A stretch of 32,935 nucleotides of DNA. It comes from Desulfobacter vibrioformis DSM 8776. GTDB lineage: Bacteria > Desulfobacterota > Desulfobacteria > Desulfobacterales > Desulfobacteraceae. The stretch covers positions 1-32,935 of the forward strand of contig NZ_JQKJ01000034.1 of NCBI RefSeq assembly GCF_000745975.1, in the 5' to 3' direction. The position numbers were made by a program, and so were the translations under genes. Positions 387-24,754 of this stretch are shown here, piece after piece (positions within the stretch are counted from its first letter, which is position 1; each line of letters opens with the position of its first letter). Under the pieces are notes generated by a model. The model did no database searches, had not been told where the DNA came from, and worked only from the letters and a program-made list of their open reading frames with translations.

Positions 387-806
387 TTATTCTCCTTTGG
401 GCAGGCTTGCGGCAAGGGCCACGTTTTGCGCCCCGGCCAGTTTACAGGCATCCATCACCGAAATCACAAGACCGGTCCGGCTCTCCTTGTCCGCCACAAT
501 CACCACACCGGCGTCGGGATTTTCAGCCATGGCCCGTTCAACACCCGAACGCACGGCCCGGACATCCATCTCCCTGCGGTCCAGGTGAATGGTGTTGTCC
601 CGGGTGATGCCGATGAGAATGGTGGCTTTGGTTTTTGCCACAGCCGTACTGGCCGTGGGCCGGGAGATGTCCACCCCGGTCTCCTTGACAAAGGAGGTGG
701 TGACCAGAAAAAAGATCAAAAGGATGAACACCATATCGATCAGGGGCGCAATATTCAGTTCAAGGGTCTTTTTCGCGGCCCGCCTGGATGCGGATATATT
801 CAGCAT
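387..806 (-). CDS. exbD: ExbD/TolR-type biopolymer transport protein
   Basis: Inner-membrane stator partner of ExbB in the proton-driven TonB motor. The 139 residues are normal for ExbD: a short cytoplasmic start, one membrane helix (about residues 20-40, IDMVFILLIFFLVTTSF) that carries Asp24, the equivalent of the essential proton-path Asp of ExbD/TolR, then a periplasmic domain. AGGAG lies six bases before the ATG. The start overlaps the end of exbB by seven bases and the stop abuts tonB, so exbB-exbD-tonB behave as one translational unit. TolR is the main alternative, but the TonB-like neighbour and the absence of tolA or tolB favour ExbD. Confidence 0.9.
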   Translation of the reverse strand: MLNISASRRAAKKTLELNIAPLIDMVFILLIFFLVTTSFVKETGVDISRPTASTAVAKTKATILIGITRDNTIHLDRREMDVRAVRSGVERAMAENPDAGVVIVADKESRTGLVISVMDACKLAGAQNVALAASLPKGE

Positions 807-1423
807 GACACACTCCTGCTGCGGATAAAGGGTTTAAGATACATGGCTGTGGAGGCGATGCGGTGTTTAAGATTTGAGGCCCGCCGGTTCAGCCACCCGC
901 TCATGTAAAGCCCGGGTATGGAGATCATCAGCCCGGTCTGGGTGGTGACCAGGGCCACGGAAATCCCCGAGGCCATGGCCCGAACATTGCCCGTGCCAAA
1001 TACAGTGATCACATCAAAGGTCTCCATCATCCCCACCACCGTGCCTAAAAGTCCCATGAGCGGCGTCACGGCAGAGAGCACACCGATCAGGGCCAGGTAC
1101 TGGTCCAAAGAGGCGGTCAGGGCCATGACCGTTTCATCAAGAATATGCTCGTCCAGATCCGGGTCCGGCACCGGGCTGCGCCGGGATAAAAATTCCCTGA
1201 TCAGAAACGCATTGGCGCCCTGATATCTCTTTTCGGGCCACTGGTTGTCCCGGACCAGCTCCCCGGCCATGGCCCGGGGCATGTTTTTCACATACAGGCG
1301 ATGCAGGAAAAACAGGCGGTTGAAGATCAGTATCCACATCACAAGGGAAACGCACAAAATGGGCACCATCACCACCCCGCCGGAACGGATATAAGCGGTC
1401 ATCTGATAAAAAAACTCGTCCAT
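800..1423 (-). CDS. exbB: ExbB/TolQ/MotA-family proton channel
   Basis: Forms the pentameric proton channel around ExbD. The 207-residue protein has three membrane segments (about 15-40, 108-135 and 152-177). The conserved MotA/TolQ/ExbB core is visible as SAVTPLMGLLGTVVGMMETF and the SGISVALVTTQTGL stretch. AAGGAA lies nine bases before the ATG. It is a compact ExbB2-type protein, matching the second, shorter proton channel of Vibrio TonB2 clusters, where it works beside TtpC. A repeat element separates it from ttpC upstream, whereas most other junctions nearby are overlaps or short gaps. Confidence 0.9.
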   Translation of the reverse strand: MDEFFYQMTAYIRSGGVVMVPILCVSLVMWILIFNRLFFLHRLYVKNMPRAMAGELVRDNQWPEKRYQGANAFLIREFLSRRSPVPDPDLDEHILDETVMALTASLDQYLALIGVLSAVTPLMGLLGTVVGMMETFDVITVFGTGNVRAMASGISVALVTTQTGLMISIPGLYMSGWLNRRASNLKHRIASTAMYLKPFIRSRSVSC

Positions 1424-1491
1424 CCGGATCGTTCCTTAATTCTGATTGCTATCTGTTGCGCTGGAAATCTCACGTGGCCGGCACCCGGTCC

Positions 1492-1638
1492 TCAATGTCA
1501 TAAAGTTAAGATGCTTCCGAATTAAAACCATGAAGAGCATGAAGGACATGAAGATTGATTTCCCGGCATATATTCTTCATGCTCTTCATGTCCTTCATGG
1601 TGAAATAAAATACTCAATGCTTAAGTTTATGACATTGA
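1492..1638. repeat. Palindromic repeat element, copy 1 (147 bp)
   Basis: Ends are 19-bp inverted repeats matching at 18 of 19 positions: TCAATGTCATAAAGTTAAG at 1492-1510 and the complement of 1620-1638. Inside are two arms with 9-nt periodicity. The left arm (1527-1553) is ACC then ATGAAG three times, separated by AGC and GAC. The right arm (1575-1601) is CTTCAT three times, separated by GCT and GTC, then GGT. The arms can fold into a hairpin of about 27 bp with two imperfect three-base steps. The right end overlaps the last codons and stop of ttpC. Read on the minus strand it aligns along its whole length with the element at 17516-17652. No coding capacity; a non-autonomous mobile or REP-like repeat is the likely class. 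Confidence 0.85.
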
Positions 1639-3111
1639 CCCGTTCCTTGCCTTGAACACCATGTTGACAAAGGCCACGGACTTTTCCTCCATGGTGCTGA
1701 TCTGGGTCTCCACGCGCCGGGATAAAAGGGTGTGAAACAGCATAATGGGAATGGCCACGGTCAATCCGAGCATGGTGGTGACCAGGGCCTCGGAAATGCC
1801 GCCGGACATCATTCTGGGGTCACCGGCCCCGTAATAAGTGATCACATGAAAGGTATTAATCATGCCGGTCACCGTTCCCAGAAGCCCCATGAGCGGCGCA
1901 ATGGCAGCCAGCATGCCCAGGGTGGATAAAAACCGTTCAATGGCGGGGATCTGGGCCAGGATCGCTTCCTGGAGCACATTTTCCATGTCCGTGCGGGTCT
2001 GCTCCCTTACAGCCAGGGCCTTGAGCAGGACCCAGGGAATGAATCCCCGCTTGTTGGCCTGCATCAAATCCCGGCATGCCTGCCAATTTCCGGATGCAAG
2101 CAAAGGGGACAGTTTTTCCATAAAAGGCTGGATCCGGATCTGGTGCCGCACAAAGAACACCAGGCGCTCCACCAGGATCAGCACGGCAATGCCCAGCAGG
2201 GCCAGGATGGGCCATACAAGGGGACCGCCCTTGGGCACCTGGTCCAGCAAATTCAATTCATGGGTAAACCGCCGAAGGGCACCGCCCTTGGAGATATCCA
2301 CGGGCACACAGTCGCTTTGCCCGGCAAGATAGGCATTGATCTGGTCTGCAAATTTTTTTGAGGGCAGCTTGGACAGGGCGAAAAACCGGCTGCTTTGATC
2401 CGAATAGAGCAGAAAACCGGTTTCCGATTCCCGGCCCTGCCCATCCGTGAGCACATACAGGGAGGTAAAATTACCGATGCTCAGAATCCTGGCCTCCCTG
2501 TCCTTTCCCTGGCGGTCCACCACCATGCCCCGGCCCAGACCGACCTGCCCCGAAGCCAGAATTTCGCCAAACAGGATATCACACATTTGGCGCAGATCAT
2601 CCATGGACCAGAACCGCTCCTGGTTGACCACAGGTGCAAGAAAACTGTTCCGGTCTTTATCAAAGGCGCTTTGGGGGCTTTGGACCAGAAGGCTGTTGAG
2701 ATCCTTGGCGCAGGTTCTGACAAAGCCTGCCAGCTCCTTGTTCACCATCCTGGATTCTTCAAGACTGCTCTGCAGTTTAGCCTGTTCGTCTGCCAGGATA
2801 TCAATTTTTTCCTGAAGTGCCGCATTGGCGGTCCCAATGCGGCTGTTTTGGGCTTTCAGCGTTGCAATGGCCGAAACAAGGGCCTCTTTGTCCTTTTTGA
2901 TGGCCCGGGCATTTTCCAGGGCCTCGGCCCGGGCTGCGGCAAGTTCTTTTGCCGCCTGGGCAGCCATGTCCCGGCGTTTTTGTTCAAGATCGGCATAGGA
3001 TTTGCGCATATCTGCGGCCAGGATTTCCGGGGCAGGAACAAAACAGACCATCGCTGTGACCAGGATCAGGCTGATCAATAAAGGAAACAAAGGGATTGAC
3101 AGGGATTTCAT
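1627..3111 (-). CDS. ttpC: TtpC-type MotA/TolQ/ExbB protein with periplasmic coiled coil
   Basis: Accessory motor protein of TonB2-type systems. The 494 residues comprise an N-terminal signal or anchor (1-30), a long charged coiled coil (about 36-130), a periplasmic globular region (about 150-290), then a membrane segment (297-320) and the ExbB-like core with helices at about 395-420 and 438-462 (IAPLMGLLGTVTGMINTF). That combination is the TtpC architecture, about twice the length of a plain ExbB. The start overlaps the DUF3450 stop by four bases (ATGA), and a G-rich ribosome binding site lies eight bases upstream. The last residues (SMS) and the TAA stop come from the repeat element at 1492-1638, so the native C-terminus may have been altered. 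Confidence 0.85.
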   Translation of the reverse strand: MKSLSIPLFPLLISLILVTAMVCFVPAPEILAADMRKSYADLEQKRRDMAAQAAKELAAARAEALENARAIKKDKEALVSAIATLKAQNSRIGTANAALQEKIDILADEQAKLQSSLEESRMVNKELAGFVRTCAKDLNSLLVQSPQSAFDKDRNSFLAPVVNQERFWSMDDLRQMCDILFGEILASGQVGLGRGMVVDRQGKDREARILSIGNFTSLYVLTDGQGRESETGFLLYSDQSSRFFALSKLPSKKFADQINAYLAGQSDCVPVDISKGGALRRFTHELNLLDQVPKGGPLVWPILALLGIAVLILVERLVFFVRHQIRIQPFMEKLSPLLASGNWQACRDLMQANKRGFIPWVLLKALAVREQTRTDMENVLQEAILAQIPAIERFLSTLGMLAAIAPLMGLLGTVTGMINTFHVITYYGAGDPRMMSGGISEALVTTMLGLTVAIPIMLFHTLLSRRVETQISTMEEKSVAFVNMVFKARNGSMS

Positions 3112-3938
3112 TTCTGATCCCCCCCTTCCGGTGCAATGGCCCCCAGGGGCAGGGCCACCACCTCCATGGGCCGGTGTTTGGCCGCCATTTCCACCACGGC
3201 CTCAATGGCCGGCACACGGGTTTTGTCCAGGGTGCGCCACTGATTGGCCGCCACGTCAAAAATCCCGGCGCTTTCCCGGTCCAGGGCCAGAAAGAACAGC
3301 GCCACCCGGCCCATACGGAAAATGTCCGCAAGGACTTCTGTGCCGTCCGCAACAATTTTTTCCCGGTACACCTCCACTGTGTTGCCGTATTCGGCCTCCA
3401 CAAACAGGGCTTCCATCATTTTTCTGTATTTTTCGGCAATGGTGATATCCGGATCATCCAGGATCACCCCCAGCCGGGCCAGCCGGTCGTTGCGTTCCCG
3501 GGATAAAAACGGGGGGTCTGCGGCCACAAGAGATTTCAGGCGTCCCAGGCGCGCTGCTAAAAACGGCGCCAGTTCCGTTCTGATTCGCAATGCCTCTTCT
3601 TTTTCCCGGGTAAGGTCCTGAATTGATTTTTCCAGATCCCCAGCCTTTTGGGCCAGGTTCCTGTTGGCAAAGGCAAGCTGTTCATGTTCCGCTTTAAGGC
3701 GGTCATATTCCTCTGCAAGGGCCTGGCGCCGGGCGTCCCATTTTTCCCGGGCCGTCTGGGCAGCCTGGCGGGTATCCACGGCCTGGTCAACCGGGGCTTC
3801 AATATCCTGTGACACAGAAACCCGGGCATGGGCTGAAGATCCTGCCCATACCGGGAATATGAGCAGACATGCCATGACAGCGCGCCCCATCCATGTTCTG
3901 CCACGATCCCGGGCGCCCTGGTTCTTTTTGCTTCCCAT
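3108..3938 (-). CDS. DUF3450 periplasmic coiled-coil protein of TonB2 operon
   Basis: Member of the DUF3450 family, which is encoded immediately before ttpC in TonB2 operons; its exact role is unknown, but the genetic link suggests a periplasmic partner of the TtpC motor. With this start it has 276 residues: a twin-Arg-free signal peptide ending near AHA (residue 38), a coiled coil (about 55-105, rich in Glu, Lys, Ala and Gln), then a globular region with RMGRVALFFLALDRESAG, typical of the family. The ATG at 3938 is chosen because AAGGGAAG lies just before it; an in-frame ATG at 3953 has no clear ribosome binding site. It starts 16 bases after the methyltransferase stop, which ties the TonB motor to the uptake operon. 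Confidence 0.8.
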   Translation of the reverse strand: MGSKKNQGARDRGRTWMGRAVMACLLIFPVWAGSSAHARVSVSQDIEAPVDQAVDTRQAAQTAREKWDARRQALAEEYDRLKAEHEQLAFANRNLAQKAGDLEKSIQDLTREKEEALRIRTELAPFLAARLGRLKSLVAADPPFLSRERNDRLARLGVILDDPDITIAEKYRKMMEALFVEAEYGNTVEVYREKIVADGTEVLADIFRMGRVALFFLALDRESAGIFDVAANQWRTLDKTRVPAIEAVVEMAAKHRPMEVVALPLGAIAPEGGDQK

Positions 3939-3954
3939 TATCTTCCCTTTCATC

Positions 3955-4584
3955 TTATTTCCATAGCCGTATCCATCGGCCATCCGCCTCTATGGGGGCG
4001 GAAAACCGGGGGATCCCCACATCCTTCAGGATTTGATCAAAATCACGGCCCTTCATTATCTGCCAGGGATCGTCCGGGCCACCGGGCCGCCGTCTTTTGC
4101 CATCCGGTCCGGGCAGCCCTTCCTTTTTCATATTCCGTTCAAACTGCTTACGCATCTCAGGGGTTCCCCGGCCGCCGCCGACAAATGCTTTGCCATGGGG
4201 TGCCAGCAACCGGTAAATTTCCGACAATGCTTTACCCGGATCTTCCCAGAACGGAATTGACCCGCGGCTGATCACCAGATCCATGCACCCGTCCGGCAAA
4301 GGAATGTTGTGAACATCAGCCTGCAGGGTTCTGGCCCGGTTTTCAAGACCGTCTTCAATGATATGGGCATCTGCCTTTTCAAGCATCTCAGGTGAAATAT
4401 CCAGAAAGGTAAATTCAAGATCCGTGATGCAGGCAAGGGCCAGGCCAAGATATCCGCCGCCGCATCCGGCATCCAGGCAGCGGCCGGACACGACACGGGT
4501 TTCATCTTTTATCTTCTTTGCGTAGTACGCATACAAAGGGGCGTTTTTACCCCTGGCGGCATGGTCATATTTAGAAACATTCAT
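3955..4584 (-). CDS. Class I SAM-dependent methyltransferase
   Basis: Small soluble methyltransferase of Rossmann fold. The SAM-binding motif I is visible as CLDAGCGGGYLGLALA (about residues 37-52), followed by motif II (FTFLDISPEM) and a motif IV-like LPDGCMDLVISRGSIPFWED. The substrate is unknown. ATG 4584 is chosen because GGAG lies six bases upstream, inside the end of the radical SAM gene, and leaves a two-base gap; ATGs at 4602 and 4596 lie further inside that gene. A clear relative occurs at 26482-27078, sharing the ADV..LP..DG..DL(IV)(VI)SRGS..FW pattern and a later GGG. Both sit in uptake operons, so modification of the imported ligand or a product of the radical SAM partner is plausible but not shown. 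Confidence 0.85.
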   Translation of the reverse strand: MNVSKYDHAARGKNAPLYAYYAKKIKDETRVVSGRCLDAGCGGGYLGLALACITDLEFTFLDISPEMLEKADAHIIEDGLENRARTLQADVHNIPLPDGCMDLVISRGSIPFWEDPGKALSEIYRLLAPHGKAFVGGGRGTPEMRKQFERNMKKEGLPGPDGKRRRPGGPDDPWQIMKGRDFDQILKDVGIPRFSAPIEADGRWIRLWK

Positions 4585-4586
4585 CT

Positions 4587-6377
4587 TCAGCTCCATTGCC
4601 ATTCCCTGTCCGGTTTGCTGAAAGACCGGTTAACCCGGGATGGTGAAAATTCCATTTGATAAAATTTACGGTAAAAGTATGTTGCCTCGGCCATGACATT
4701 AAAATCAAAGCGTTCCGGGTGCAGCACATTTGCCATATACATCAGCCCCAGGATCCAGCGGGGACTGCCAAAATCCCATCCCGGGCAGGGCGGGGTAAAA
4801 ATCCGGCGGTTCTTTACTGCATTGGCCTCAATGCCAAGGTCCAGGCACTCCTGGTAAAAATCATTTACTGTGTTGGAAATAAAGGCTGAAATGAAAATGA
4901 CATCCGGGTTAAGGGCGTTCAGTTTTTCAACGGTAAGGGTTTGGCCCGGCCGTCCCCCGGATTCAAGGAACCTGTTCACACTGGTTCCTCCGGCCGTCTC
5001 TGTGAGCTGGTTTTCCAGCCTGCTGTAATTAAGATAAAACAGCGGCTTTGCCATGGTGTAATAGACCCGGGGATATGCTGTCGCCGATGCAACACCCGAT
5101 TCAATGGGCAACAGTTTTTCTTCCAGGTATACGGCCAGTTCTTCGGCGGCGTCCGGGACCTGGGCAATTTTGCCGAAATGGCGAAGCCCCTGGATATAGG
5201 CGCCGGGCGTCTGGATTCCATGGTGCAGTTTTTTTAAGCCCCCCTTTCCAAGCAGGGCTTCCCATGCCTTTGCCAGTTTGCTTTTATCCCGCACCCCCAT
5301 GGCGATCAGCATGGCTTCCACCATTTCCAGGGCCCGGGTAAAGGGATATCCGCCTTGAAAGTCTCCTTCCTGATACGGGGTTTGCGGGGAAACACCGGTC
5401 ATATTCAGATTCTTCCGGCACTCGGGACACCGCCCGTTTTGCAAGGACACCGGGGGCACCTCATAGGGTTTGGCCCCCATGGGCCCGTAAAAATCCCGTT
5501 TGTAAACCGTATGGTTACAATCGGGGCAGGCTGTATGGAGAAGCGTTGTCCCGGGGGTATTGAAAAGATAGACAAACGGAAGTATTTTGCGAAGTTCTGT
5601 GCAAAAGTTTTCGGCATCCCGGACATTGGGCTCCTGTGAAATATCCGCACCTTCAAAGGGAATGAACCGCATCACCTGCAAAGGGATGGCCGGGGATATC
5701 TGTGAAATAAACATGGCCAGATCCGTCAGTTCTTCGGCATTGTCTTTCATCAGGATGGCCGAAATTTCAACATGGACCCCGGAACAGACCAGTGACCGGA
5801 TGTTCCGCAGAACCGGCGCGATCCCGGATGAAGCCCCACAGGCATAATACGCTTTGTCGAAAAACCCTTTCATGCCGATGTTGATGAAATCCAAATAAGG
5901 CGTAAGCTGCGCCAACGCCTTTTCAGTAAAATAGGTGTTTGAAGAGCAGCCCACCCGAAGACCTTTGGACCGCGCCAGTTTTGCCACGCGCAGAAATGTT
6001 GGAAAAGATGCCAGGGGATCGTTCATTAAAAAGGCGATCCCCATACAGGTTTCCTCAATCGCTTTGTTAACGATCTGTTCCGGGGTCAGGGTTTGGAACA
6101 CCGGGCTGTCCGGGGGCATCTCCCGGACAATGACCGCGGAAATACAGCCCGGGCAATTGAAATTACAGCCCGTGGTGCTGATTTGAAGAAACTTTCCCCC
6201 GGGGAAGTAGTGCAGAATGGGCATGGTTTCAATGGAAATGGGGCAGGCAACCAGGTACCGGTCCGCGAACCGCTCTTCAATACGCCCTTGTTTTTGCTCA
6301 TACATGCCGCACAAACCGGTTTTCCCGTCAGCCAGAACACAGCCCTGTTCACAGATATGACAGTTCAGATTAACCAT
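4587..6377 (-). CDS. Radical SAM protein fused to binding-protein C-lobe
   Basis: 596-residue fusion without a signal peptide. Residues 1-30 carry CHICEQGC and a fourth Cys (C6, C9, C13, C23), followed by PISIETMPILHYFPGG and the radical SAM cluster motif C71-x3-C75-x2-C78, the layout of the AmmeMemoRadiSam/PflA-like family. A zinc-ribbon-like pair follows (C284/C287 and C317/C320). Residues about 411-580 match the C-terminal half of FecB/BtuF binding proteins, including the two in this window: YPRVYY, TAGGTSVNR, LNALNPDVI, NRRIFTPP and W.FGSPRWILGLMYMANVLHP. The N-lobe of the binding fold is absent. AAGGAAAA precedes the ATG by several bases and the receptor gene ends 11 bases upstream. Reaction and substrate are unknown; the fusion implies binding of the transported ligand or docking to its transporter. 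Confidence 0.85.
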   Translation of the reverse strand: MVNLNCHICEQGCVLADGKTGLCGMYEQKQGRIEERFADRYLVACPISIETMPILHYFPGGKFLQISTTGCNFNCPGCISAVIVREMPPDSPVFQTLTPEQIVNKAIEETCMGIAFLMNDPLASFPTFLRVAKLARSKGLRVGCSSNTYFTEKALAQLTPYLDFINIGMKGFFDKAYYACGASSGIAPVLRNIRSLVCSGVHVEISAILMKDNAEELTDLAMFISQISPAIPLQVMRFIPFEGADISQEPNVRDAENFCTELRKILPFVYLFNTPGTTLLHTACPDCNHTVYKRDFYGPMGAKPYEVPPVSLQNGRCPECRKNLNMTGVSPQTPYQEGDFQGGYPFTRALEMVEAMLIAMGVRDKSKLAKAWEALLGKGGLKKLHHGIQTPGAYIQGLRHFGKIAQVPDAAEELAVYLEEKLLPIESGVASATAYPRVYYTMAKPLFYLNYSRLENQLTETAGGTSVNRFLESGGRPGQTLTVEKLNALNPDVIFISAFISNTVNDFYQECLDLGIEANAVKNRRIFTPPCPGWDFGSPRWILGLMYMANVLHPERFDFNVMAEATYFYRKFYQMEFSPSRVNRSFSKPDREWQWS

Positions 6378-6388: not shown

Positions 6389-8569
6389 TTAAAAAGAGAA
6401 AGAGACTTCCATGCCAAGGGTCCGTCCGCGGTCCGGGTAGTATCCGGTCACGTAGCGTGTGGAATAGTTGTCATCTCCCAGGTTCCGCCCGAAAACCGCC
6501 ACATTCATGAGAATGTTTTTCAGGCTAAAATCCCGGGAAATATTGGCATCCACCCGGGTATATCCGCCAAGCCCGCCGGATGAAGAACTCCCCATGGCAC
6601 TGCTGGTATTGGTCCATTCATCCACCTGTTTGACGGATAAGTTGAACCGGTAAGAATTCCAGTGATGGGTCAGGGTTAATCCGAAAATATTCTCAGGTGT
6701 GGAAAGGCCGATTTCATCGGTTGTCACACCGTCACCGGTACTCTCGTTTTTGAGCATATAGGTCCAGCTAGCCTTGTAAAAAGTGTTTTGGCAGATCGTT
6801 CCCTGAACGGCCAGCTCTATCCCCTGCCGCAGTGTGTCAGACTCGGTGTAATAGTAATAGGTGCCGCTGTCCAGTTCATAGGTGGCGGACGTCGCGCTTT
6901 TTTCATTTTCCGTATCAACGTCAAACCAGGTCAGGGTCGGGTTGAAAAATGAGGCGATCTTTACGCCCAGGCCGATTTCAATACGTTCCTGCTTTTCTGC
7001 ATGGGGGATTGCGTCGTGTTCCAGCCGCATGTCAAAATCCCCGGAGGTTCCCTGGTCCCCGTAAAAATACCGGCCATCCAGGGTCACCCGGTCCATCACC
7101 TTCCAATGGGCACCAAAGGCAAGCACTTTTGCCGGGGCCATATCCACATCATTGTTGGCATCATCGCTGGCCGAGCTTGCGCTCCTGGCCGCACTGGAGT
7201 TGTCGATATGTTTTTCATCCCAGCGGCCCCCAAGATCCAGGATCAGGTTGTTGTGGAAAAGGGACTGCTCCACCGAGGCCGAAAAACCGGTGACGGTGGT
7301 GTCATACCTGTTGTAGCCTTTGCTGAGATTGGGGCCGTATCCCGTGCTGCTGGACATCTGGACCCCGGCCTGAACCAGGGTGCCCCCGAACCGGGCATTG
7401 TGCCGCAGACCGAATCCGGACGTGTCCTCGGTGTATTCCTCCTTGTCCGTAACGCTTGGGGAAGAAAAACTTTCATTATGCTCATGCTGCTCGTAATCGG
7501 TTTTGAATACGTTGAACAGCGTTACCTGGTCCCGGGTCCATTTCAGGCTTGCATCTGCTGAGAGTATACCGACTTTCAGGGGATCGTAGTACCACTTGGC
7601 ATTGTCCAGGGTTCCGTCCTCCTTGACCCCGCGCTGCATCTCGAACCGTCCGCTGTCCTGGTACACCATCATGTTAAGGCTGAACTTTCCTGCTGTGAGT
7701 CCGGCATTGGCCATCCCTCCATAGGATTCCTGTCCGTCAAACCAGGAATCCTGGCTTGACCGGTCCATCCTGGACCCCAGGGCCCCGATATACGCCTCGG
7801 AACCGGCTTGATTTTTCATGCGGGTGCCCACAAACAGATCTGCGGAATAGCCCACCGGATGTCCGCCCGCGGCCTTTTCAATACTGGTGCGCAAGGTGCC
7901 TTCGGTTCTTTCCGGCTGCCGGGTCCGGATAATGATAAAACCGGTGTTGATCCCTGATCCTGAGCTGGATGCGCCAATGGGGATGGTCGGCCCCAGGGTG
8001 AGAGAAGTGGCCCCCCTGACGACTTTGAGCTCTTCAATGGACGCCACCGGAAACTTGTAAAGAATCCGGTTGACCGACGGCGGCAGTACAGCACCGTCAA
8101 TGATATAAGTAAAATTTCCGCCACCTCGCTGGCGGATGATATAGGGGTATTTGCGGCCCTGGTATGCAATATCGATCCCTGCGGCCTTGTCAATCAGGTC
8201 GTTCAGGTCCTTGGGCTTGAAATTTTTAATGTCCTCCCGGGTAAATACCTCCGTGGCAAACTCGGTACTGGCTTCGGTCCGGTAGAGATTGGTCAGGCTG
8301 CCGGGTTGAAGGTCCGGCCGGGTTGACCCTTTTGACCCGGTCACGGTGAGCGGTGCCAGTTCCTGAACGTCTGGTTCCGTCTCCTTATCATCTGTCACGG
8401 CCACGGTATCTTGGCCCCCGGTGACAGCGGTTTCGGGTTCAGCACCCATTACATAGGATGTGTTCAGGACCAGGGCCATCATCATACATCCCGCAACAAA
8501 AAATAGTTTCCATAGGTTCATTCCGCTGCAACGCATCTTCCTTTCGGTCCAACGCATCAATCGTCTCAT
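6389..8569 (-). CDS. TonB-dependent outer-membrane receptor
   Basis: Imports a ligand across the outer membrane using TonB energy. The 726 residues fit the family. Visible parts are a signal peptide (about 43 residues, ending YVMGA), an acidic linker, a TonB-box-like segment (ELAPLTVTG), the plug domain (IIRQRGGGNFTYIIDGAVLPP, SIEELKVVRGATSLTLGP), many amphipathic strands and a terminal VSFSF ending in aromatic Phe. The ATG at 8569 is chosen over an upstream TTG because AAGGAAG precedes it. Downstream lies the radical SAM gene, upstream the binding protein gene. The plug has an ASSSGSG insertion where many receptors have a shorter loop. Ligand not predictable from sequence alone. Confidence 0.9.
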   Translation of the reverse strand: MRRLMRWTERKMRCSGMNLWKLFFVAGCMMMALVLNTSYVMGAEPETAVTGGQDTVAVTDDKETEPDVQELAPLTVTGSKGSTRPDLQPGSLTNLYRTEASTEFATEVFTREDIKNFKPKDLNDLIDKAAGIDIAYQGRKYPYIIRQRGGGNFTYIIDGAVLPPSVNRILYKFPVASIEELKVVRGATSLTLGPTIPIGASSSGSGINTGFIIIRTRQPERTEGTLRTSIEKAAGGHPVGYSADLFVGTRMKNQAGSEAYIGALGSRMDRSSQDSWFDGQESYGGMANAGLTAGKFSLNMMVYQDSGRFEMQRGVKEDGTLDNAKWYYDPLKVGILSADASLKWTRDQVTLFNVFKTDYEQHEHNESFSSPSVTDKEEYTEDTSGFGLRHNARFGGTLVQAGVQMSSSTGYGPNLSKGYNRYDTTVTGFSASVEQSLFHNNLILDLGGRWDEKHIDNSSAARSASSASDDANNDVDMAPAKVLAFGAHWKVMDRVTLDGRYFYGDQGTSGDFDMRLEHDAIPHAEKQERIEIGLGVKIASFFNPTLTWFDVDTENEKSATSATYELDSGTYYYYTESDTLRQGIELAVQGTICQNTFYKASWTYMLKNESTGDGVTTDEIGLSTPENIFGLTLTHHWNSYRFNLSVKQVDEWTNTSSAMGSSSSGGLGGYTRVDANISRDFSLKNILMNVAVFGRNLGDDNYSTRYVTGYYPDRGRTLGMEVSFSF

Positions 8570-8609
8570 CTCTCTTCCTTTATTTGATTGTGACAACGGT
8601 GTTGCCTTT

Positions 8610-9707
8610 TCAACTGTTTATCAGCGAGAGGAGTTCCTTCTCGCTTAGATCATAATGGTAAAACAGGGAGAAAAAGGTCTTCACCCTTGTTTTGGCCCAG
8701 TTTTCCGGAAAAAGGTCCGGATAGAGAACATGGGCTGTCCAGGGAATGCCCGGGATGCGGTTGACCCCGGGCGGGCGGTCGAACCAGTTAAACGGCATCC
8801 CGGGGGCGCAATGGATTCGATGATCCCGGACCGCCATCACTTTTTTCCATGTCCCGTCCCCATAGGCATGCTGTTCAAATTCCGGGCTTGTGGTGATGAT
8901 GTTGTCAGGATTCCACATCAATACCGACTCCATGGTCACCTGGGTCATGCCGGGTCCGGATGAGATTTTGCATTGGGCAACGTTGATACCGCCGCACACG
9001 TCGATCAGTTGTGAATGACAGGAGCCGGCAGGGTCGGTTGCCAGCCCGTTCTCCTTTTCAGCATAATAGACCCGTGCCCGCTTCCCGTCCGGGATACCGG
9101 ATACTTTTTGCTGCACCTCCTGCAAAAGATCCTCGTAAAAGCCGGCCAGGGTCTGGCCCCGGTCCGGCACACCAAGCACCTCCCCCATAAACCGCAGGGT
9201 TTCGGCATATCCCACCGCGTTTCTTGCATTGTCCACGCACACCACAGGGATGGTGCCGAACTTCTTCTGGACCAGGTCCACCCTTGACAGATCAAAGCCG
9301 GTCTCGTGCAGCTCGAACACAAGATCCGGATGCTGTGCAATATAGGCTTCATAGTTGGTTACATTCCGTCCCCAGCTCAGCACCGGGATATGCTGGAATT
9401 TTTCCGGGATAAACTTTTTGGCCTGCCCGGCAGGGGAGAAAAACCATCCGCCCAGCTTTTCAGGTGCGATCATGTAAACAAATGTCGCCGGCGGCGGAGA
9501 TGTGGTCAGCACTTTGGTTATGTTTGCCGGTATTTTGACCTTCCGGCCGGCCATATCCGTTATTTCCCGGAATGGCCCGGCAACCGGGCTGACAGTACTG
9601 CTGCCTGTATCTTCCTGGTTTACGGTGTTGGCCGATGTTATACCTGCCGGCAAAAGGGCCGTCAGCATCAGTATGCTGATTACGGCCGTTAGTTTTCGAA
9701 TCATCAT
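8610..9707 (-). CDS. FecB/BtuF-type ABC transporter substrate-binding protein
   Basis: Periplasmic binding protein of a class III metal-chelate/cobalamin importer. The 365-residue protein has a signal peptide (MMIRKLTAVISILMLTALLP, cleavage near TSA), the usual start motif ITDMAGRKVKIP, a long interdomain helix (near RGQTLAGFYEDLLQEV) and the C-lobe with WFDRPPGVNRIPGIPW. It carries an unusual motif, HSQLIDVCGGINVAQC, shared in pattern with the second binding protein at 30926. ATG 9707 follows GGAAGGAG; an upstream TTG is less likely. It sits between the ATPase gene (69-base gap) and the receptor gene (40-base gap). Ligands of the family include vitamin B12, siderophores and haem; none can be assigned. 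Confidence 0.88.
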   Translation of the reverse strand: MMIRKLTAVISILMLTALLPAGITSANTVNQEDTGSSTVSPVAGPFREITDMAGRKVKIPANITKVLTTSPPPATFVYMIAPEKLGGWFFSPAGQAKKFIPEKFQHIPVLSWGRNVTNYEAYIAQHPDLVFELHETGFDLSRVDLVQKKFGTIPVVCVDNARNAVGYAETLRFMGEVLGVPDRGQTLAGFYEDLLQEVQQKVSGIPDGKRARVYYAEKENGLATDPAGSCHSQLIDVCGGINVAQCKISSGPGMTQVTMESVLMWNPDNIITTSPEFEQHAYGDGTWKKVMAVRDHRIHCAPGMPFNWFDRPPGVNRIPGIPWTAHVLYPDLFPENWAKTRVKTFFSLFYHYDLSEKELLSLINS

Positions 9708-9776
9708 CTCCTTCCTTTCATTTTCGTTCCAATTCCGGTTCAAGCCCGGTCCAATCCTGATAAATAAATTTGATCA

Positions 9777-10574
9777 TCACATCCTGCCCCGGCCCTTTGC
9801 CAGAACCCGGGACAGCGGGATCACAAAGGGCGAATCCCCGATGCGTTTCACCATGGCTTTTATGCCGTAAACCGTCCCAAGATTTTCCGGGGTCAGCACG
9901 TCATCCGGTATGCCGTTGGCCAAAATTTTTCCTTTTTTCATCATCAGCATCCTGTCGGAATACCGGGCAGCCATGTTCAGATCATGGATGGCGATAATGG
10001 CTGTGAGCCGTTGCTTGCGCACAAGGGTTCGCAGGATCTCCATCACATCGATCTGGTGCCAGATATCCAGGTTGCTGGTGGGTTCATCCAGGAGCAGTAA
10101 ACCGGTGTCCTGGGCCAGGGCCCGGGCAATCAGCACCTTTTGCTGCTGGCCCCCGGACAGCTCACTGAAAAACGCCAGGGCCAGATTCTCAATGCCCAGC
10201 AGCCCCAGGACTTCCCACACTTTGCCTTCATCCTGTTCATTGGCCTTCCATCCCAGGTGGGGCCTGCGTCCCATGAGCACCACATCAAAGACCGTATGGG
10301 TAAACACCCGAAGCGAATTCTGGGGAACATAGGCAACCAGGCGCGCAGCGTCCTTGCGGTTCATTTTAAAAAGGTCCTGGCGTTCCACCAGCACATCGCC
10401 GGAACGGGGTTCAAGAATCCGGTCAATGCATTTGATCAGGGTTGATTTTCCCGAACCGTTCGGGCCGACAATACTGACGATCTGGCCGTCCCCGATGGCC
10501 ATGAAAAAGTCATGCAGCACATCATCGCCGGCATAGCCAAAGGTCAAATTTTTAACCGTAAGTTTATTGATCAT
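9777..10574 (-). CDS. FecE/BtuD-type ABC transporter ATPase
   Basis: Energises import through the adjacent FecCD permease. All nucleotide-binding motifs are intact in the 265 residues: Walker A GPNGSGKST (37-45), Q-loop within YVPQNS, signature LSGGQ (139-143), Walker B LLLLDEP (159-165) and H-loop His197. The segment VFDVVLMGRRPHLGW is typical of FecE/FhuC/BtuD ATPases. Its ATG overlaps the permease stop by four bases (ATGA), which indicates translational coupling and a stoichiometric complex. Confidence 0.93.
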   Translation of the reverse strand: MINKLTVKNLTFGYAGDDVLHDFFMAIGDGQIVSIVGPNGSGKSTLIKCIDRILEPRSGDVLVERQDLFKMNRKDAARLVAYVPQNSLRVFTHTVFDVVLMGRRPHLGWKANEQDEGKVWEVLGLLGIENLALAFFSELSGGQQQKVLIARALAQDTGLLLLDEPTSNLDIWHQIDVMEILRTLVRKQRLTAIIAIHDLNMAARYSDRMLMMKKGKILANGIPDDVLTPENLGTVYGIKAMVKRIGDSPFVIPLSRVLAKGRGRM

Positions 10575-11698
10575 GCCCAGAACTCCCGGCGTTTCCCCCT
10601 GATGATCAGATAGAGGAACAAGGGAATACCCAGCATGGACATGATGATGCCCACCGGAATAACAACGCCTCCCAGGATATTCATGGACACGGCATTGGCA
10701 ATCAGAAGCAAAGCGCTGCCAATGCCGCCGGATGCCGGAATCAGAAACCGGTGGTCATTGCCGATGATGATCCGCGCAATATGGGGGGCCACAAGCCCCA
10801 CAAATCCGATGACCCCGGTAAAGGCCACAATGGCGGCAACCAGCAGGCTTGCCACCACCATTACGGCCATGCGGACCGCATGGGCATCCACGCCCATGCT
10901 CCTGGCGCAGTCATCGCCCGTGGTCATCAGGTTAAGATCCCAGGCTTTGCCATAGAGGAACGGCAGGCAGACCAGACAGATGGCGCCCAAAAACCAGAGA
11001 CTGTTCCAGTTGAGATCCGAAAGAGATCCCATGCCCCAGTAGGACATGACGGTCCGCTGCTCATCGTCGGCAATATAGGTAAACAGCTGGTTGGCGGCCT
11101 GGAACAGATAGTTGACGGCAATGCCGGCAAGGATCAGGGTTTCGGACGTGGCCCCCCTCAGGGCTGAAAGGCCAATGATGAATCCCGAGCAAAGGGCTGC
11201 GCAGACAAAGGCATTTCCCACCAGGAAATAGGGGCCGTCCAGAAAGGAAATACCGAAAACCACGGCCAAAGAAACACCGAAATGGGCACCCGAGGAGATC
11301 CCCAGGGTAAAGGGGCTTGCCATGGGATTTTTTAAAACCGCCTGCATCACGCACCCGCAGACCCCTAACCCCACGCCGCAAATCACGGTTCCTGTGATAA
11401 GCGGCATGCGGATGTCCCAGATCACATGGGCGAGAATGGGATTGATATCCAACCCGCTTGGGATCAGCCGGTCAAACAGGGTGAGATAGACCTGGCGGAC
11501 AGTCATGGGAACCTGGCCCAGGGTGATGATGAAACTTGCCGCAATGATCAGCAGCAGGAGCAGGGCACCCAGGAAAAAGAATTTGCCCTGGACCGAATGG
11601 GCGTGGGCCTGCCGCATGGGCGTCATTTTTCCGGTGCGGGTTCTCCCGGGGGCCTGCCAGGACAGCCCGGGGGTGGCCCGTAAAAGCGCCTGTCTCAT
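10571..11698 (-). CDS. FecCD/BtuC-family ABC transporter permease
   Basis: Integral-membrane channel of the metal-chelate importer. The 375-residue protein has a longer-than-usual basic N-terminus (about 38 residues), then about ten hydrophobic segments. Family landmarks are WDIRMPLITG, GVCGCVMQAVLKNPMASPFTLGISSGA and the coupling region GVIGFVGLVAPHIARIIIG. The ATG at 11698 overlaps the slipin stop (ATGA type), with AAAGG ten bases upstream; a later start near MTPMRQ would trim the odd N-terminus but lacks a good ribosome binding site. It is followed directly by its ATPase gene. Confidence 0.93.
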   Translation of the reverse strand: MRQALLRATPGLSWQAPGRTRTGKMTPMRQAHAHSVQGKFFFLGALLLLLIIAASFIITLGQVPMTVRQVYLTLFDRLIPSGLDINPILAHVIWDIRMPLITGTVICGVGLGVCGCVMQAVLKNPMASPFTLGISSGAHFGVSLAVVFGISFLDGPYFLVGNAFVCAALCSGFIIGLSALRGATSETLILAGIAVNYLFQAANQLFTYIADDEQRTVMSYWGMGSLSDLNWNSLWFLGAICLVCLPFLYGKAWDLNLMTTGDDCARSMGVDAHAVRMAVMVVASLLVAAIVAFTGVIGFVGLVAPHIARIIIGNDHRFLIPASGGIGSALLLIANAVSMNILGGVVIPVGIIMSMLGIPLFLYLIIRGKRREFWA

Positions 11699-12453
11699 CG
11701 GTCAATCGCCTTTGCGCATCCGATCATGGCGCCAGTGGAATCTGTTCCGCCGGTTACCACGATCAGGTTACGTTCCTTTGCGATTTCAGACAGGGTCTGG
11801 AACTCCCGGAGTTTGAGTGCGGCCGGGGTGGTTTGGTAAGCCCTGGCCGCTTCGCTCATCCGCTGTGATGCCTGGCACTCGCCGTCCGCGAGAATGACCC
11901 GGGCCCGTCTTTCCCGCTCAGCCTCGGCCTGGCGGGCAATGGCCCGAAGCATGTTCTCGGGCAAGGCAATGTCGCGGATGGTGACGATATCCACACGGAT
12001 ACCCCAGGGCGCTGTTACGGTTTCAAGAAGGGCTTGGATTTTCTGGTTCAGGACCTCCCGGTCGGAAAGGATCGAATCCAGTTCGTTCTGCCCCAGAACA
12101 TCCCGAAGCATGGTCTGGGCAATCAGTGCCGTGGCACCCTCATAGTCTTCAATCGCCACCACGGCCTGGGCCGGATCAATGACGTGGTAGTAAATAACGG
12201 CATCCACATCTGCGCTGATATTGTCCCGGGTGATGATGGTCTGTTTGGGCACGTCAAGCTGACGGGTTCTTAAATCCACCCGGGCGATTTGATCCACAAC
12301 CGGAATGATCCAGAAAAGCCCCGCGCCTTTCACACCTTTCAGGCGGCCAAATCTGAAGACCACCGATCGGACATATTGACGGTTAATTCTGATGGACCCC
12401 AGGATGAACACAGCGATAAGACAAACAAATCCAACTTTCCACAAAAAGACCAT
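11695..12453 (-). CDS. Slipin/stomatin (SPFH, band 7) membrane protein
   Basis: Membrane-scaffold protein. One N-terminal membrane helix (about residues 4-22) is followed by the SPFH domain: VFRFGRLKGVKGAGLFWIIP, then RTRQLDVPKQTIITRDNISA and VDAVIYYHVIDPAQAV, the classic slipin pattern, then an Ala/Glu/Arg-rich helix (AIARQAEAERERRARVI). No NfeD partner gene, the common neighbour of bacterial slipins, is present. Instead its stop overlaps the permease start, so slipin and transporter are co-translated. ATG 12453 has GAGGG eight bases upstream; a GTG at 12468 with AAAGG six bases upstream is a real alternative. It is the first gene of the long minus-strand operon. Confidence 0.88.
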   Translation of the reverse strand: MVFLWKVGFVCLIAVFILGSIRINRQYVRSVVFRFGRLKGVKGAGLFWIIPVVDQIARVDLRTRQLDVPKQTIITRDNISADVDAVIYYHVIDPAQAVVAIEDYEGATALIAQTMLRDVLGQNELDSILSDREVLNQKIQALLETVTAPWGIRVDIVTIRDIALPENMLRAIARQAEAERERRARVILADGECQASQRMSEAARAYQTTPAALKLREFQTLSEIAKERNLIVVTGGTDSTGAMIGCAKAIDR

Positions 12454-12499
12454 CACAATATCCCTCACACCGGACCTTTGGGGGTCAGTGCCACGTTTG

Positions 12500-12917: not shown

Positions 12918-13217
12918 ATGGAAAAAATTATTGATGTAACCGTTGCCCGCAGGCAATTGGGCACATTGTTGGATGAGGTTTTTCACAAGGGAGATGTTTT
13001 TACCATTAAAAGAAAAGGAAAGGCCCTTGCCAGAATCGTCCCTCTTGATACGGCATTGCACCATAAAGAAAAAGAGAGCCTCTCCTTAAAACAAAAAGAG
13101 CTGCTCAAAGAGCTGAACAGCCTGCCCGTTATCGGGATGGACAAAGATCCTGTTGAGGTTCTAAGGTCCATACGACAACAAAAAAGGATTGAAGCAGGCA
13201 ATAAAGATGACAAATAG
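12918..13217 (+). CDS. Phd/YefM-like type II antitoxin
   Basis: Predicted to bind DNA at its own promoter and neutralise the PIN toxin encoded next. The 99 residues begin with the Phd/YefM-type pattern (IDVTVARRQLGTLLDEVFHKGDVF, then IKRKGKALARIVPL), followed by a charged, probably flexible C-terminal half (about 45-99) that would wrap the toxin. AAAGGAG lies seven bases before the ATG. Its end overlaps the toxin start by 11 bases, the usual antitoxin-first layout. Autoregulation is expected from the family and not shown here. Confidence 0.8.
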   Translation: MEKIIDVTVARRQLGTLLDEVFHKGDVFTIKRKGKALARIVPLDTALHHKEKESLSLKQKELLKELNSLPVIGMDKDPVEVLRSIRQQKRIEAGNKDDK

Positions 13218-13656
13218 CAGCTATGTACTGGATGCCAATGTGTTCCTGGAATACATCTATGGCCGGCCGTTGCAGGGGCAGGCAAAGCAAATATTTGAAG
13301 ATGCTGTATTGGAACACATCCAAATCATGGTTCCAAGCCTTGCCCTGGATGAAATCACTGAAGTCCTTTGCGGTAATTTGAACGAAATCACAGATGTTGA
13401 GCGCCATTTAAAATTTATTGAAAAAATGGCAGAGGCTGACGTCTTGAGCATTATTGTACCCAATATCCAGACCCGAATGAAAGCGATTGAGATCGCAAGA
13501 AGCGGGAACCCAAAAAGCGGTTATCCGGAATTAACAGACGCCCTTTATCATGCACTGGCCATTATGAATGATGCAGTGTTTATAACAAATGATAAAAGAC
13601 ATATTGCAAAAGTTGCGGTGTTTGGCCACATTGCCATGCTGTCTGACTACGCGTAA
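13207..13656 (+). CDS. PIN-domain ribonuclease toxin (VapC-like)
   Basis: Predicted metal-dependent RNase toxin. The 149 residues contain the PIN acidic quartet in order: Asp9 (YVLDANVFLEY), Glu49 or Glu52 (ALDEITEVL), Asp111 (ELTDALYHALA) and Asp129 (FITNDKRH). The ATG at 13207 overlaps the antitoxin end by 11 bases and is preferred over an upstream TTG at 13189. Size and domain layout fit VapC-like toxins; tRNA or rRNA cleavage is typical for the family, but the target here is unknown. It lies 161 bases upstream of hsdM and could help to keep the restriction locus in the population. Confidence 0.85.
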   Translation: MTNSSYVLDANVFLEYIYGRPLQGQAKQIFEDAVLEHIQIMVPSLALDEITEVLCGNLNEITDVERHLKFIEKMAEADVLSIIVPNIQTRMKAIEIARSGNPKSGYPELTDALYHALAIMNDAVFITNDKRHIAKVAVFGHIAMLSDYA

Positions 13657-13817
13657 TCCGGAATTCAAAAGACAGGTGTTTAAAAATTTTAATATGTTGC
13701 CGGATGATAAATGCCAGTCATAGCCTTGACGTGTATGGCATGCGGCAAAGGGATATGATACAAGCAAGGAAATTGAAGAGTCCCGAAATTCAACCGCTGA
13801 ACGCTGACAGGAATTAA

Positions 13818-16220
13818 ATGAATCACGCTGTACACAACAAGATCGTATCCTTTATCTGGTCCATTGCCGATGACTGCCTAAGAGACATTTATGTCAGGGG
13901 AAAATACCGGGATGTTATTTTGCCCATGGTGGTGCTGCGGCGTCTGGACAGCCTGCTGGAACCGTCCAAGGAAGCCGTACTCAGAGAAGCAGACTTTCAA
14001 AAAAAACAGATGGGATTGACGGAGCTGGACGGTAAAGGCCTTGAAGATGCCGCAGGCTTTGTGTTTTACAATACCAGCAAATGGACCTTGAAAAAACTGT
14101 TCACCGTGGCCGGCAACAACCAGCAGGTTTTAAAAGCCAATGTAGAGGAGTATCTTTCAGGATTTTCCGCCAACGTTAAGGAGATCATTGAAAAATTCAA
14201 CCTTAATGCCCAGATCCGCCATATGGCAGCCAAGGACGTTCTGCTGGATGTCCTGGAAAAATTCACATCGCCTTATCTGAACCTCACCCCCGAAGAAAAG
14301 CTGGACCCGGACGGCAATCCCATGCCGCCTTTAAGCAACCTGGGCATGGGGTATGTGTTTGAAGAGCTGATCCGCAAATTCAACGAAGAGAACAATGAAG
14401 AGGCAGGAGAGCATTTTACGCCAAGAGAAGTGATTGAGCTGATGACCCGTCTTGTCTTTGAACCGGTAAAGGAAAAGATGCCGCCGGTGATCACCATCTA
14501 TGACCCGGCCTGCGGGTCCGGCGGCATGCTCACGGAATCCCAGGCGTTTATTAAAAGGGAAACCGGGCGGCAGGCCGATGACGGGTATATTTATCTGTAC
14601 GGCAAAGAGATCAATGACGAAACCTATGCCATCTGTAAATCAGACATGATGATCAAGGGAAATGATCCGGGCTTTATCCGTCCCAATTCAACCCTTTCCA
14701 CGGATGAATTTGCAGGGACTGCCTTTGATTTCATGCTCTCCAACCCGCCCTACGGGAAAAGCTGGGCAAGCGAACAGAAATTTATCAAGGATGGCGCCAA
14801 TATCATTGACCCCCGGTTCAAGGTGACCCTGAAAAATTATTGGGGCGAACCCATGGAAGTGGACGCCGCACCCCGGTCCAGCGATGGGCAGCTTTTGTTC
14901 TTAATGGAGATGGTCAGCAAAATGAAGGCACCGGACCAGAACGTGTTCGGGTCGCGCATCGCCTCGGTTCACAACGGCTCTTCCCTGTTCACCGGGGATG
15001 CGGCAAGCGGTGAGAGCAATATCCGCCGCCACATCATTGAGAACGATCTGCTCGAAGCGGTTGTCCAATTGCCCAATAATCTGTTTTACAACACCGGCAT
15101 CACCACCTATATCTGGCTTTTGTCCAACAACAAATGTGATGCCAAAAAAGGAAAGATCCTGCTCGTTGATGCATCCAGGTGTTTTCAAAAATTGAGAAAA
15201 AACCTGGGGAACAAAAACTGCGGGTTCTCAGGCGCCCATATCCGCAAGATTGCTGCGGCCTGTGCAAAGATGCAGGCCATTGAGCCTATACAGGATGAAA
15301 AAGGAGAGGATACCGGTATTGGTGCCAAAGTATTTGAAAACAGCGACTTTGGATATTATAAGGTGGCCATTGAACGGCCGGACAGAAGATCGGCCCGGTT
15401 TACAAAAGAGTGCATCGCGCCCCTGCGTTTTGACAGGGCCTTTGCCGTTCCCATGGAATGGATATATGCGCAGTGGGGGGATGCCGTTTACACCCCTGGC
15501 ACCCTTGCGGATCATGAAAAGGAGATCCTGGCCTTTTGCCAGGACAACGGTGTTGCATTAAATACAAAGAGCCGCAAAAAACTGTTCAGTTTAAATAGCT
15601 GGAACAAGCATAAAGCCCTGGTAGACGCGGCCCAAAAGCTGATGGCGGCCATGGGCCGGGATGAATGCAAGGATTTTAACCGGTTTCAATCCCAGGTGGA
15701 TAACACCCTGAAAACCTTGAACCTGAAATTGTCGGCCCCGGAGAAAAAGGCTATTTTAACTGCGGTGTCCCGGTACGATGAAACCGCGAGGCGAGTGGTC
15801 AAAAAGAAGGTCAAACTGTCAGGAGACAAGCTTGAAAACCTGCTGGATCATCTGGGGTGCCGGCAAACAGACCTGCCGGACTTTGGATTTTATCCTGTGG
15901 CGGGCAAAAAGGGAGAATACCTGATTTTTGAACCCTGCTCGGATCTTAGGGACCATGAGTCCGTGCCCCTGAAAGATGATATCCATGACTTTTTCAAGAC
16001 GCAAGTCCTTCCCCATGTGCCCGAGGCCTGGATCAATCTGGATTCGGTGAAAATCGGCTATGAGATCAGTTTCAATAAATATTTCTACCGCCATAAGCCC
16101 TTGCGGAGCATGGAAGAGGTGGCCAGGGAGATCCTGGACCTGGAGCGCCGGGCCGAGGGGTTGATTGCCGATATTCTGGGCCTTGACGGGGCAGCGGTTT
16201 CAGGTGTGGAACATGACTGA
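13818..16220 (+). CDS. hsdM: Type I restriction-modification DNA methyltransferase subunit HsdM
   Basis: N6-adenine methyltransferase subunit; with HsdS it protects host DNA and with HsdR it forms the restriction complex. The 800 residues hold the HsdM N-terminal helical domain (about 1-150), the catalytic domain with SAM motif DPACGSGG (229-236) and catalytic NPPY (309-312), and a long C-terminal extension (about 560-800). Common HsdM proteins have about 500-550 residues, so this is a long subtype. AGGAATTAA precedes the ATG. The stop overlaps hsdS by eight bases. The catalytic motifs are intact, so it is probably active. Confidence 0.95.
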   Translation: MNHAVHNKIVSFIWSIADDCLRDIYVRGKYRDVILPMVVLRRLDSLLEPSKEAVLREADFQKKQMGLTELDGKGLEDAAGFVFYNTSKWTLKKLFTVAGNNQQVLKANVEEYLSGFSANVKEIIEKFNLNAQIRHMAAKDVLLDVLEKFTSPYLNLTPEEKLDPDGNPMPPLSNLGMGYVFEELIRKFNEENNEEAGEHFTPREVIELMTRLVFEPVKEKMPPVITIYDPACGSGGMLTESQAFIKRETGRQADDGYIYLYGKEINDETYAICKSDMMIKGNDPGFIRPNSTLSTDEFAGTAFDFMLSNPPYGKSWASEQKFIKDGANIIDPRFKVTLKNYWGEPMEVDAAPRSSDGQLLFLMEMVSKMKAPDQNVFGSRIASVHNGSSLFTGDAASGESNIRRHIIENDLLEAVVQLPNNLFYNTGITTYIWLLSNNKCDAKKGKILLVDASRCFQKLRKNLGNKNCGFSGAHIRKIAAACAKMQAIEPIQDEKGEDTGIGAKVFENSDFGYYKVAIERPDRRSARFTKECIAPLRFDRAFAVPMEWIYAQWGDAVYTPGTLADHEKEILAFCQDNGVALNTKSRKKLFSLNSWNKHKALVDAAQKLMAAMGRDECKDFNRFQSQVDNTLKTLNLKLSAPEKKAILTAVSRYDETARRVVKKKVKLSGDKLENLLDHLGCRQTDLPDFGFYPVAGKKGEYLIFEPCSDLRDHESVPLKDDIHDFFKTQVLPHVPEAWINLDSVKIGYEISFNKYFYRHKPLRSMEEVAREILDLERRAEGLIADILGLDGAAVSGVEHD

Positions 16221-17499: not shown

Positions 17500-17515
17500 T
17501 GATAAAAGGATAAAC

Positions 17516-17652: not shown

Positions 17653-17680
17653 GGATACCCCCTAAAAAAAGGAGCGTCAC

Positions 17681-21368: not shown

Positions 21369-21393
21369 TAATTGCTCTAATCATTTAATCATT

Positions 21394-21432
21394 TCCGGCA
21401 CAACAGAAGAGATATTATTCTGTCGTGCCGGA
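21394..21432. terminator. Convergent hairpin terminator
   Basis: TCCGGCACAACAGAA (21394-21408) and its near-perfect complement (21418-21432) match at 14 of 15 positions around a 9-base loop. It sits between the plus-strand Gly/Lys-rich gene and the minus-strand lipoprotein gene. The right arm is the last codons of the lipoprotein gene and its stop codon lies in the loop. No strong T run follows on either strand, so it may end or stabilise transcripts from both sides. Confidence 0.6.
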
Positions 21433-24748: not shown

Positions 24749-24754
24749 GAACAG

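Follow-up and report, generated by a model that had tools for sequence, protein, structure and literature searches.

In a 32,935-nucleotide stretch of the genome of Desulfobacter vibrioformis DSM 8776 (contig NZ_JQKJ01000034.1, analysed at full length and called the window below), a minus-strand open reading frame at 4587-6377 codes for a 596-residue protein, starting MVNLNCHICEQGC, that joins a radical SAM enzyme to the C-lobe only of a class III substrate-binding fold. This architecture had been proposed in a first-pass annotation of the DNA. It was upheld by Pfam, a profile search, an AlphaFold model and Foldseek, confirming that the observation is real and that it is conserved. The fusion family is widespread, mostly in oxygen-avoiding microbes.

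Architecture of the fusion and its gene neighbourhood

The fusion gene lies among minus-strand genes, which are given here with the three parts of the fusion protein.

387..3983 (-), DUF3450, DUF3450-ExbB, ExbB and ExbD-like genes, kept in four same-genus orthologous loci (L038-L041)
3955..4602 (-), class I SAM-dependent methyltransferase, overlapping the end of the fusion gene; a recurrent partner
4638..5198 (-), fusion residues 394-580, inter-lobe helix and C-lobe of a class III substrate-binding protein, no N-lobe
5199..5402 (-), fusion residues 326-393, linker with a conserved GGY motif (342-344) and short helices
5403..6377 (-), fusion residues 1-325, radical SAM half, from Pfam/NCBIfam matches and cysteine alignment
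6389..8596 (-), TonB-dependent outer-membrane receptor, Plug domain match
8610..9743 (-), FecB-type periplasmic binding protein (FecB1), domain/model match
9777..10574 (-), FecE/BtuD-type ABC ATPase, domain/model match
10571..11698 (-), FecCD/BtuC-type permease, domain/model match
11695..12468 (-), Band 7/SPFH protein, opening the gene run and shared by the four same-genus orthologous loci (L038-L041)

At 387-3983, the assignments come from Pfam matches for DUF3450 and for two MotA_ExbB genes and, for ExbD, from reading of the sequence; these genes are a probable energising module for the TonB receptor. Upstream of the operon we found weak inverted repeats.

The window also holds a second TonB/FecBCD cluster, headed at 23978-26442 by a HypB/CobW-like GTPase, an ABC-type ATPase (assigned from the sequence by eye and from a local match) and a solute-binding protein of the SBP_bac_6 type. 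The last of these represents a second binding-protein fold and, having no visible signal peptide, may be cytoplasmic. A second methyltransferase, TonB receptor, FecC, FecE and FecB set (by reading) follows at 26476-31978 with no fused radical SAM gene. Between the two Fec regions, antitoxin-like and PIN-like small genes precede type I restriction-modification-like M, S and R genes (12918-20770, by reading), and a sigma-factor-like gene and two small genes lie between two glycine-rich proteins (20967-23609, by reading). By the same reading, both small genes end in a carbohydrate-binding-like domain.

No signal peptide of the fusion is visible by eye, its N-terminus opens straight into a cysteine motif, and the protein is presumably cytoplasmic. 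The radical SAM half carries 11 cysteines (C6/C9/C13/C23; the CX3CX2C motif at C71/C75/C78; C284/C287; C317/C320), all of which are present in 19 of 19 aligned unfused relatives. Pfam Radical_SAM (PF04055) matched residues 67-223 at E 8e-13 with 49.3 bits against a cut-off of 29.5, so the protein has both marks of the superfamily, the CX3CX2C motif and a domain above cut-off.

The C-terminal region is the later part of a class III binding protein

Pfam Peripla_BP_2 (PF01497) matched residues 398-528 at E 4e-4, too weakly to reach the Pfam cut-off, and the match was restricted to profile positions 99-230 of 235, the later part. In BLAST comparisons, the fusion was 28% identical to one FecB protein of the window (E 4e-7) and 24% identical to the other (E 8e-6), the E values being computed for a nominal database size of 1e6. 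Smith-Waterman alignment of residues 401-596 with these two proteins gave z = 15 and 9 (500 shuffles), and residues 1-340 gave z = 1.0 and -0.5. The likeness of the lobe to both FecB proteins, first proposed by eye, is thus beyond chance. A profile of residues 336-596, built from 13 sequences including the window protein, matched the class III binding proteins 4hn9, 4ovk and 4pag in the PDB with E values of 9e-16 to 1e-13. The 4hn9 match starts at chain residue 151 of 335, which we take to lie past the N-lobe. The starting points of the PF01497 and 4hn9 matches agree with the absence of an N-lobe that had been claimed for the fusion.

An AlphaFold2 model of the full-length fusion, made from an alignment of 80 sequences, had a pLDDT of 93.5 and a pTM of 0.91. 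The best Foldseek matches of this model were again 4ovk, 4hn9 and 4pag (prob 1.00; 4ovk E 1.7e-12), with superpositions at 2.2-4.1 Å across 196-213 columns. Also among the profile and Foldseek matches was MolA (3psa), a molybdate-binding class III protein. The structural comparison suggested in the first-pass annotation, here made with the full-length model rather than with residues 411-596 alone, therefore relates the region to the class III fold, of which the C-lobe and inter-lobe helix are present and the N-lobe is missing. The domain itself stands, but the start at residue 411 or 435 given earlier falls slightly late: the inter-lobe helix from about residue 394 belongs to it.

Distribution and origin of the fusion

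The genome of D. vibrioformis encodes a second full-length copy, which is 37% identical, lies on another contig (C10) and also adjoins a FecB gene, together with one unfused relative elsewhere. Among 389 genomes sampled from the class, 22 matched the fusion C-terminal profile, and a search with the lobe profile gave matches in eight of 395 genomes sampled from the phylum. A search for the same architecture, recommended at the outset, yielded 79 loci in one scan of named genomes; these gave 69 non-identical, near-full-length fusions from about eight phyla, methanogens included. The sequences in the tree come from Thermodesulfobacteriota, Bacillota, Campylobacterota, Deferribacterota, Chlorobiota, Pseudomonadota, Spirochaetota and Methanobacteriota, with one record under Myxococcota. 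Throughout an alignment of 80 rows, C9, C13, C23, C71, C75, C78, C284, C287, P445 and N468 are invariant, and C6 is present in 79. Chance or an assembly artefact is ruled out by these 80 aligned fusions; some fusions lie in single-contig genomes and one on a complete chromosome (L085). Plasmid spread was considered and rejected, as none of 31 matching plasmid records covers 80% of the query, and viral contigs gave one weak locus. Word searches of the open-licence literature found no paper that, judged by its listing, describes the fusion or its system.

A tree of 78 fused C-lobes and 79 neighbouring binding proteins parted the two groups by one branch (SH-aLRT 100), this being a quick tree with long-branch warnings. 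When the radical SAM halves were compared (50 rows), four unfused copies from Fec clusters (L042, L043, L049 and L095) were sister to the fused clade, which suggests that the radical SAM enzyme was probably associated with Fec genes before it acquired the C-lobe and that, as far as the trees indicate, this acquisition probably happened once. A further unfused copy (L057:13300-14301), sharing 58% identity with the window protein, stops at the end of the radical SAM half; it nests inside the fused clade and seems to have lost the lobe secondarily.

The fusion is linked to FecBCD/TonB importer genes

All 12 fusion loci of relatives had a FecB or FecC homologue within 6 kb, as did 55 of the 75 named loci with an anchor (four of the 79 had none). 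Combined, with three loci present in both sets counted once, this amounts to 64 of 84 anchored fusion loci; the homologue search found none within 6 kb in the remaining 20. As a control we used unfused relatives, from a pool of 92 places that a hand count divided into 13 fused and 79 unfused. Twenty and then 56 unfused loci were fetched. None of the 73 anchored loci among these 76 had a FecB or FecC homologue within 6 kb, and the figure became 3/76 once the unfused copies in L042, L043 and L049, already known to lie in Fec clusters, were entered as positives without a new search (Fisher 7e-23). Many unfused control loci are on short contigs, so that a neighbour could be missed; in the second control batch, 30 of 54 anchored loci spanned at least 12 kb and none was positive. 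These counts support a genetic linkage of the fusion to FecBCD/TonB importer genes.

Around 72 fusions, the recurrent neighbours at distances of up to 8 kb were a methyltransferase cluster (46 loci), FecC (42), FecE/ABC (40) and a cluster assigned to DUF364 from a single member (13). We scanned 90 neighbours in all, 84 from a 125-entry list that a script drew from 290 candidates within 4 kb and that was shortened by hand, and six added because they looked Mo-related, so that the counts of ModA, MoeA-like and FmdE neighbours are inflated. The fusion loci L055, L057, L058 and L084 each encode a BATS-type, HmdB- or BioB-like radical SAM protein. At L049:8711-10468 a related radical SAM enzyme is joined instead to the front part of an unknown protein of about 393 aa that L042 and L043 encode separately, in a neighbouring gene; the protein of this type from L042 had no Pfam or NCBIfam match.

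Links to molybdenum and tungsten control in several lineages

The Rfam model of the Mo/W-cofactor riboswitch (RF01055) detected seven copies in five fusion loci: L055, L056 (three copies), L057, L058 and L074. With Rfam, neither the window nor L037-L039 showed any match, and seven other loci showed no metal riboswitch. A second model, derived from the seven RF01055 copies, detected 12 copies in nine of 92 sources, all nine among the 79 named loci, adding L066, L073, L084 (two copies) and L120; it had no match in the window or in L037-L048. Eight of the nine loci carry one or more copies on the strand of the fusion and upstream of it; in L057 the riboswitch lies just downstream. The gene order is riboswitch-FecB-fusion in L066 and L120, and riboswitch-FecC-FecE-DUF364-FecB-fusion in L073 and L074. 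Across 23 riboswitch-bearing fusion genomes RF01055 occurs at about 1.9 per Mb, a rate that draws on genomes of 49 of the 79 named loci (nine of 13 loci in one batch were chosen for having matches) and on a genome total of 83.1 Mb summed from rounded sizes, so that 0.79 copies would be expected in the 411 kb of their 24 fusion loci, against 12 seen (Poisson 6e-11). The segment that, by our own placement, corresponds to P3 is absent in the five Geobacter copies and present in the seven Bacillota copies. According to Regulski et al. (2008, PMC2408646), RNAs lacking P3 correlate with the tungsten cofactor and P3-bearing RNAs with the molybdenum cofactor, with exceptions.

A further locus, that of Desulfosporosinus fructosivorans (L201/L059, not among the nine riboswitch loci), contains modB, modA and modD with two RF01055 matches by position, followed by an XdhC-like gene, FecB, FecC, a FecE-like ATPase and a methyltransferase. 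Directly before this fusion (L201:11486-15195) lie nifD/E-like and nifK/N-like genes (below cut-offs) and a nifH-type gene, and after it lie nifH and anfD, both above their cut-offs, which places Fe-only nitrogenase genes near this fusion. The family has ties to Mo/W control in several of its lineages.

The window protein falls in a 14-row clade (support 100) with two proteins from riboswitch-bearing Geobacter loci, and its own-genome paralogue falls in an eight-row clade (support 99) with the riboswitch-bearing L120. A search of 59 genomes around the window, the genome of the window among them, yielded no RF01055, and none was above cut-off in 25 of 36 further fusion-bearing genomes. We found no AOR N-domain in the window's own genome, and the window contains no match to one E. 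coli-type pattern for a ModE palindrome. With no RF01055 in the 59-genome set, we infer by kinship that the window's copy handles Mo/W.

Reworked residues of the fused lobe

We compared 78 fused lobes with 79 neighbouring binding proteins. Scaffold positions are common to both (V438, G463, P491, A520 and P554), and other positions have been exchanged. Position 455 is H in 56 of the 79 binding proteins and E in 77 of the 78 fused lobes; the corresponding changes are A (50/79) to N (78/78) at 468, G (60/79) to P (77/78) at 477 and R (50/79) to W (75/78) at 541. Position 445, variable in the binding proteins, is P in all 78 fused lobes, and C511, present in 76/78, stands in a column that is a gap in 79/79 binding proteins. 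Several of the changed positions presumably lie at the cleft, where the BtuF structure would place them. It is plausible, as first proposed, that the lobe binds the imported ligand. Because these positions differ consistently from those of the neighbouring binding proteins, any ligand would be bound via other residues, and with several residues unlike those of the adjacent proteins it is not assured that the ligand is the same.

The first-pass annotation had offered, as another possibility, that the C-lobe docks the enzyme onto the inner face of the importer. The strong gene linkage between fusion and importer would fit such docking, and the window protein itself retains the glutamate of the SxEQ motif (E484), which we take to correspond to the BtuC-contacting E202 of BtuF. 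Across the family, however, this glutamate is relaxed (39/78 fused lobes vs 78/79 binding proteins), the Q that follows it is found in 11/78 vs 71/79, and binding proteins dock at the periplasmic, not the cytoplasmic, face of a transporter. With the docking glutamate relaxed and other residues swapped for a new, near-invariant set, docking at the inner face is highly improbable. Judged from its residues, the fused lobe is under strong constraint, though not that of a transporter-docking binding protein.

Proposed role and alternative explanations

The reading that we favour, while holding it with slightly less than even confidence, is that the fusion is a cytoplasmic radical SAM enzyme of Mo/W acquisition, with the C-lobe as a lid, that alters an imported metal carrier by radical chemistry. 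Mo/W would be acquired through a FecBCD/MolABC-type ABC importer and, in Gram-negatives, also a TonB receptor. A radical SAM enzyme already tied to such an importer would have acquired, probably in a single event, the ligand-holding C-lobe from a class III binding protein, and the lobe may now form a lid or wall of the active site. A metal-carrying small molecule, or its metal-free form, could then be held between C-lobe and radical SAM barrel, where a 5'-deoxyadenosyl radical would alter it together with the partner methyltransferase. The reaction would most likely free or rework the metal after import. In its most specific form, in which an imported Mo/W complex is handed to the enzyme, gripped by half a binding protein and dismantled or remodelled by radical chemistry, the proposal is more doubtful and offered as a possibility.

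The genes near the fusions, among them an HmdB-like radical SAM protein, a methyltransferase and two MATE genes, fit the making as well as the unmaking of a chelator. The enzyme might accordingly take part in making an organic compound that binds Mo/W, either secreted or intracellular (a metallophore or a ligand of a cofactor), a role we consider rather unlikely; the C-lobe would, with the same low likelihood, recognise the growing molecule because the binding protein of the importer recognises the finished one. Class I and O-methyltransferases among the neighbours speak for synthesis, as do the BATS-type (HmdB- or BioB-like) radical SAM neighbour of L055, L057, L058 and L084, the MATE genes (two of the 90 scanned neighbours) and the DUF364/DUF4213 neighbours, for which one report suggests pterin-, flavin- or siderophore-like chemistry (PMC2954201). 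Against this, the top 25 families by count among the 90 neighbours, a non-exhaustive list, include no NRPS, ligase or other scaffold-making enzyme, and the partner genes differ between clades while the importer genes recur. The substrate could instead be a tetrapyrrole or iron complex (cobalamin, heme or a siderophore), with the Mo/W riboswitch marking only some lineages, and this we judge unlikely. The curated models that score highly for the window importer, though none reaches its cut-off, are those of BtuC and of corrinoid, heme and ferric-siderophore ABC subunits, and TonB receptors in the neighbourhood of fusions give hits to siderophore and heme models. A CbiK-like chelatase gene, seen divergent from the operon at L039:17498-18397, lies beside it in three of five same-genus loci. 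The CbiK-like gene and the receptor matches keep a tetrapyrrole or iron ligand in play as a minor prospect. The CbiK link was set aside, as it holds in only three of the five genus loci: the ORFs of the other two and of the 79 named loci yielded no homologue. Cobalamin control was likewise rejected despite the BtuCD-like importer, since 26 sources contain no cobalamin riboswitch above the Rfam cut-off, and five of them contain RF01055.

If the more specific proposal of radical processing is correct, Mo/W acquisition in a whole class of anaerobic uptake systems ends in a radical enzymatic step; we know of no such step in metal acquisition for molybdenum or tungsten. To our knowledge, trace-level Mo/W uptake by anaerobes, and the chemical form taken up, are poorly known beyond oxyanion importers. 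Were an importer coupled in this way to a radical reaction across sulfate reducers, syntrophs, acetogens and methanogens, this would point to an unseen molecular form of Mo/W, on which a conserved, importer-linked enzyme would give a genetic handle. The fusion is also a clean case in which an enzyme has taken over half a binding protein as one of its domains.

Comparison with known systems

The radical SAM half resembles the AmmeMemoRadiSam radical SAM protein (amrS, TIGR04337), with which residues 4-324 align and share the same cysteine pattern; the score of 118.8 bits is below the curated NCBI cut-off of 220. Unlike that protein, the fusion has about 270 extra residues (linker and C-lobe) and does not lie beside Memo and AMMECR1 genes, which we take to define the AmmeMemoRadiSam system: in its own genome the only Memo match is on contig C27, the only AMMECR1 match on C15 and the fusion on C33. 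In Foldseek, the first match of the radical SAM half was PFL-activating enzyme. This enzyme, NifB, MoaA, QueE and viperin have the radical SAM core in common with the fusion, but are just 11-19% identical to it in the Foldseek lists, and we know of no substrate-binding-protein lobe in any of them.

The genes under control of the Moco/Tuco riboswitch (RF01055) likewise include those for Mo/W transport and cofactors (PMC2408646). In the main text of that paper, 'radical' and 'TonB' are absent and 'siderophore' occurs in a reference title only, so these terms are not used there to describe the genes of the fusion loci. For the MolBC-A molybdate importer of Haemophilus, the excerpts available mention no radical SAM partner. 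The class III proteins (FecB/BtuF/TroA-like; 4hn9, 4ovk, 4pag and MolA 3psa) are like the fusion, in fold and in sequence, over the inter-lobe helix and C-lobe. In contrast to them, the fusion has no N-lobe and no visible signal peptide, the docking glutamate is relaxed in its family, and other residues of the lobe have been replaced.
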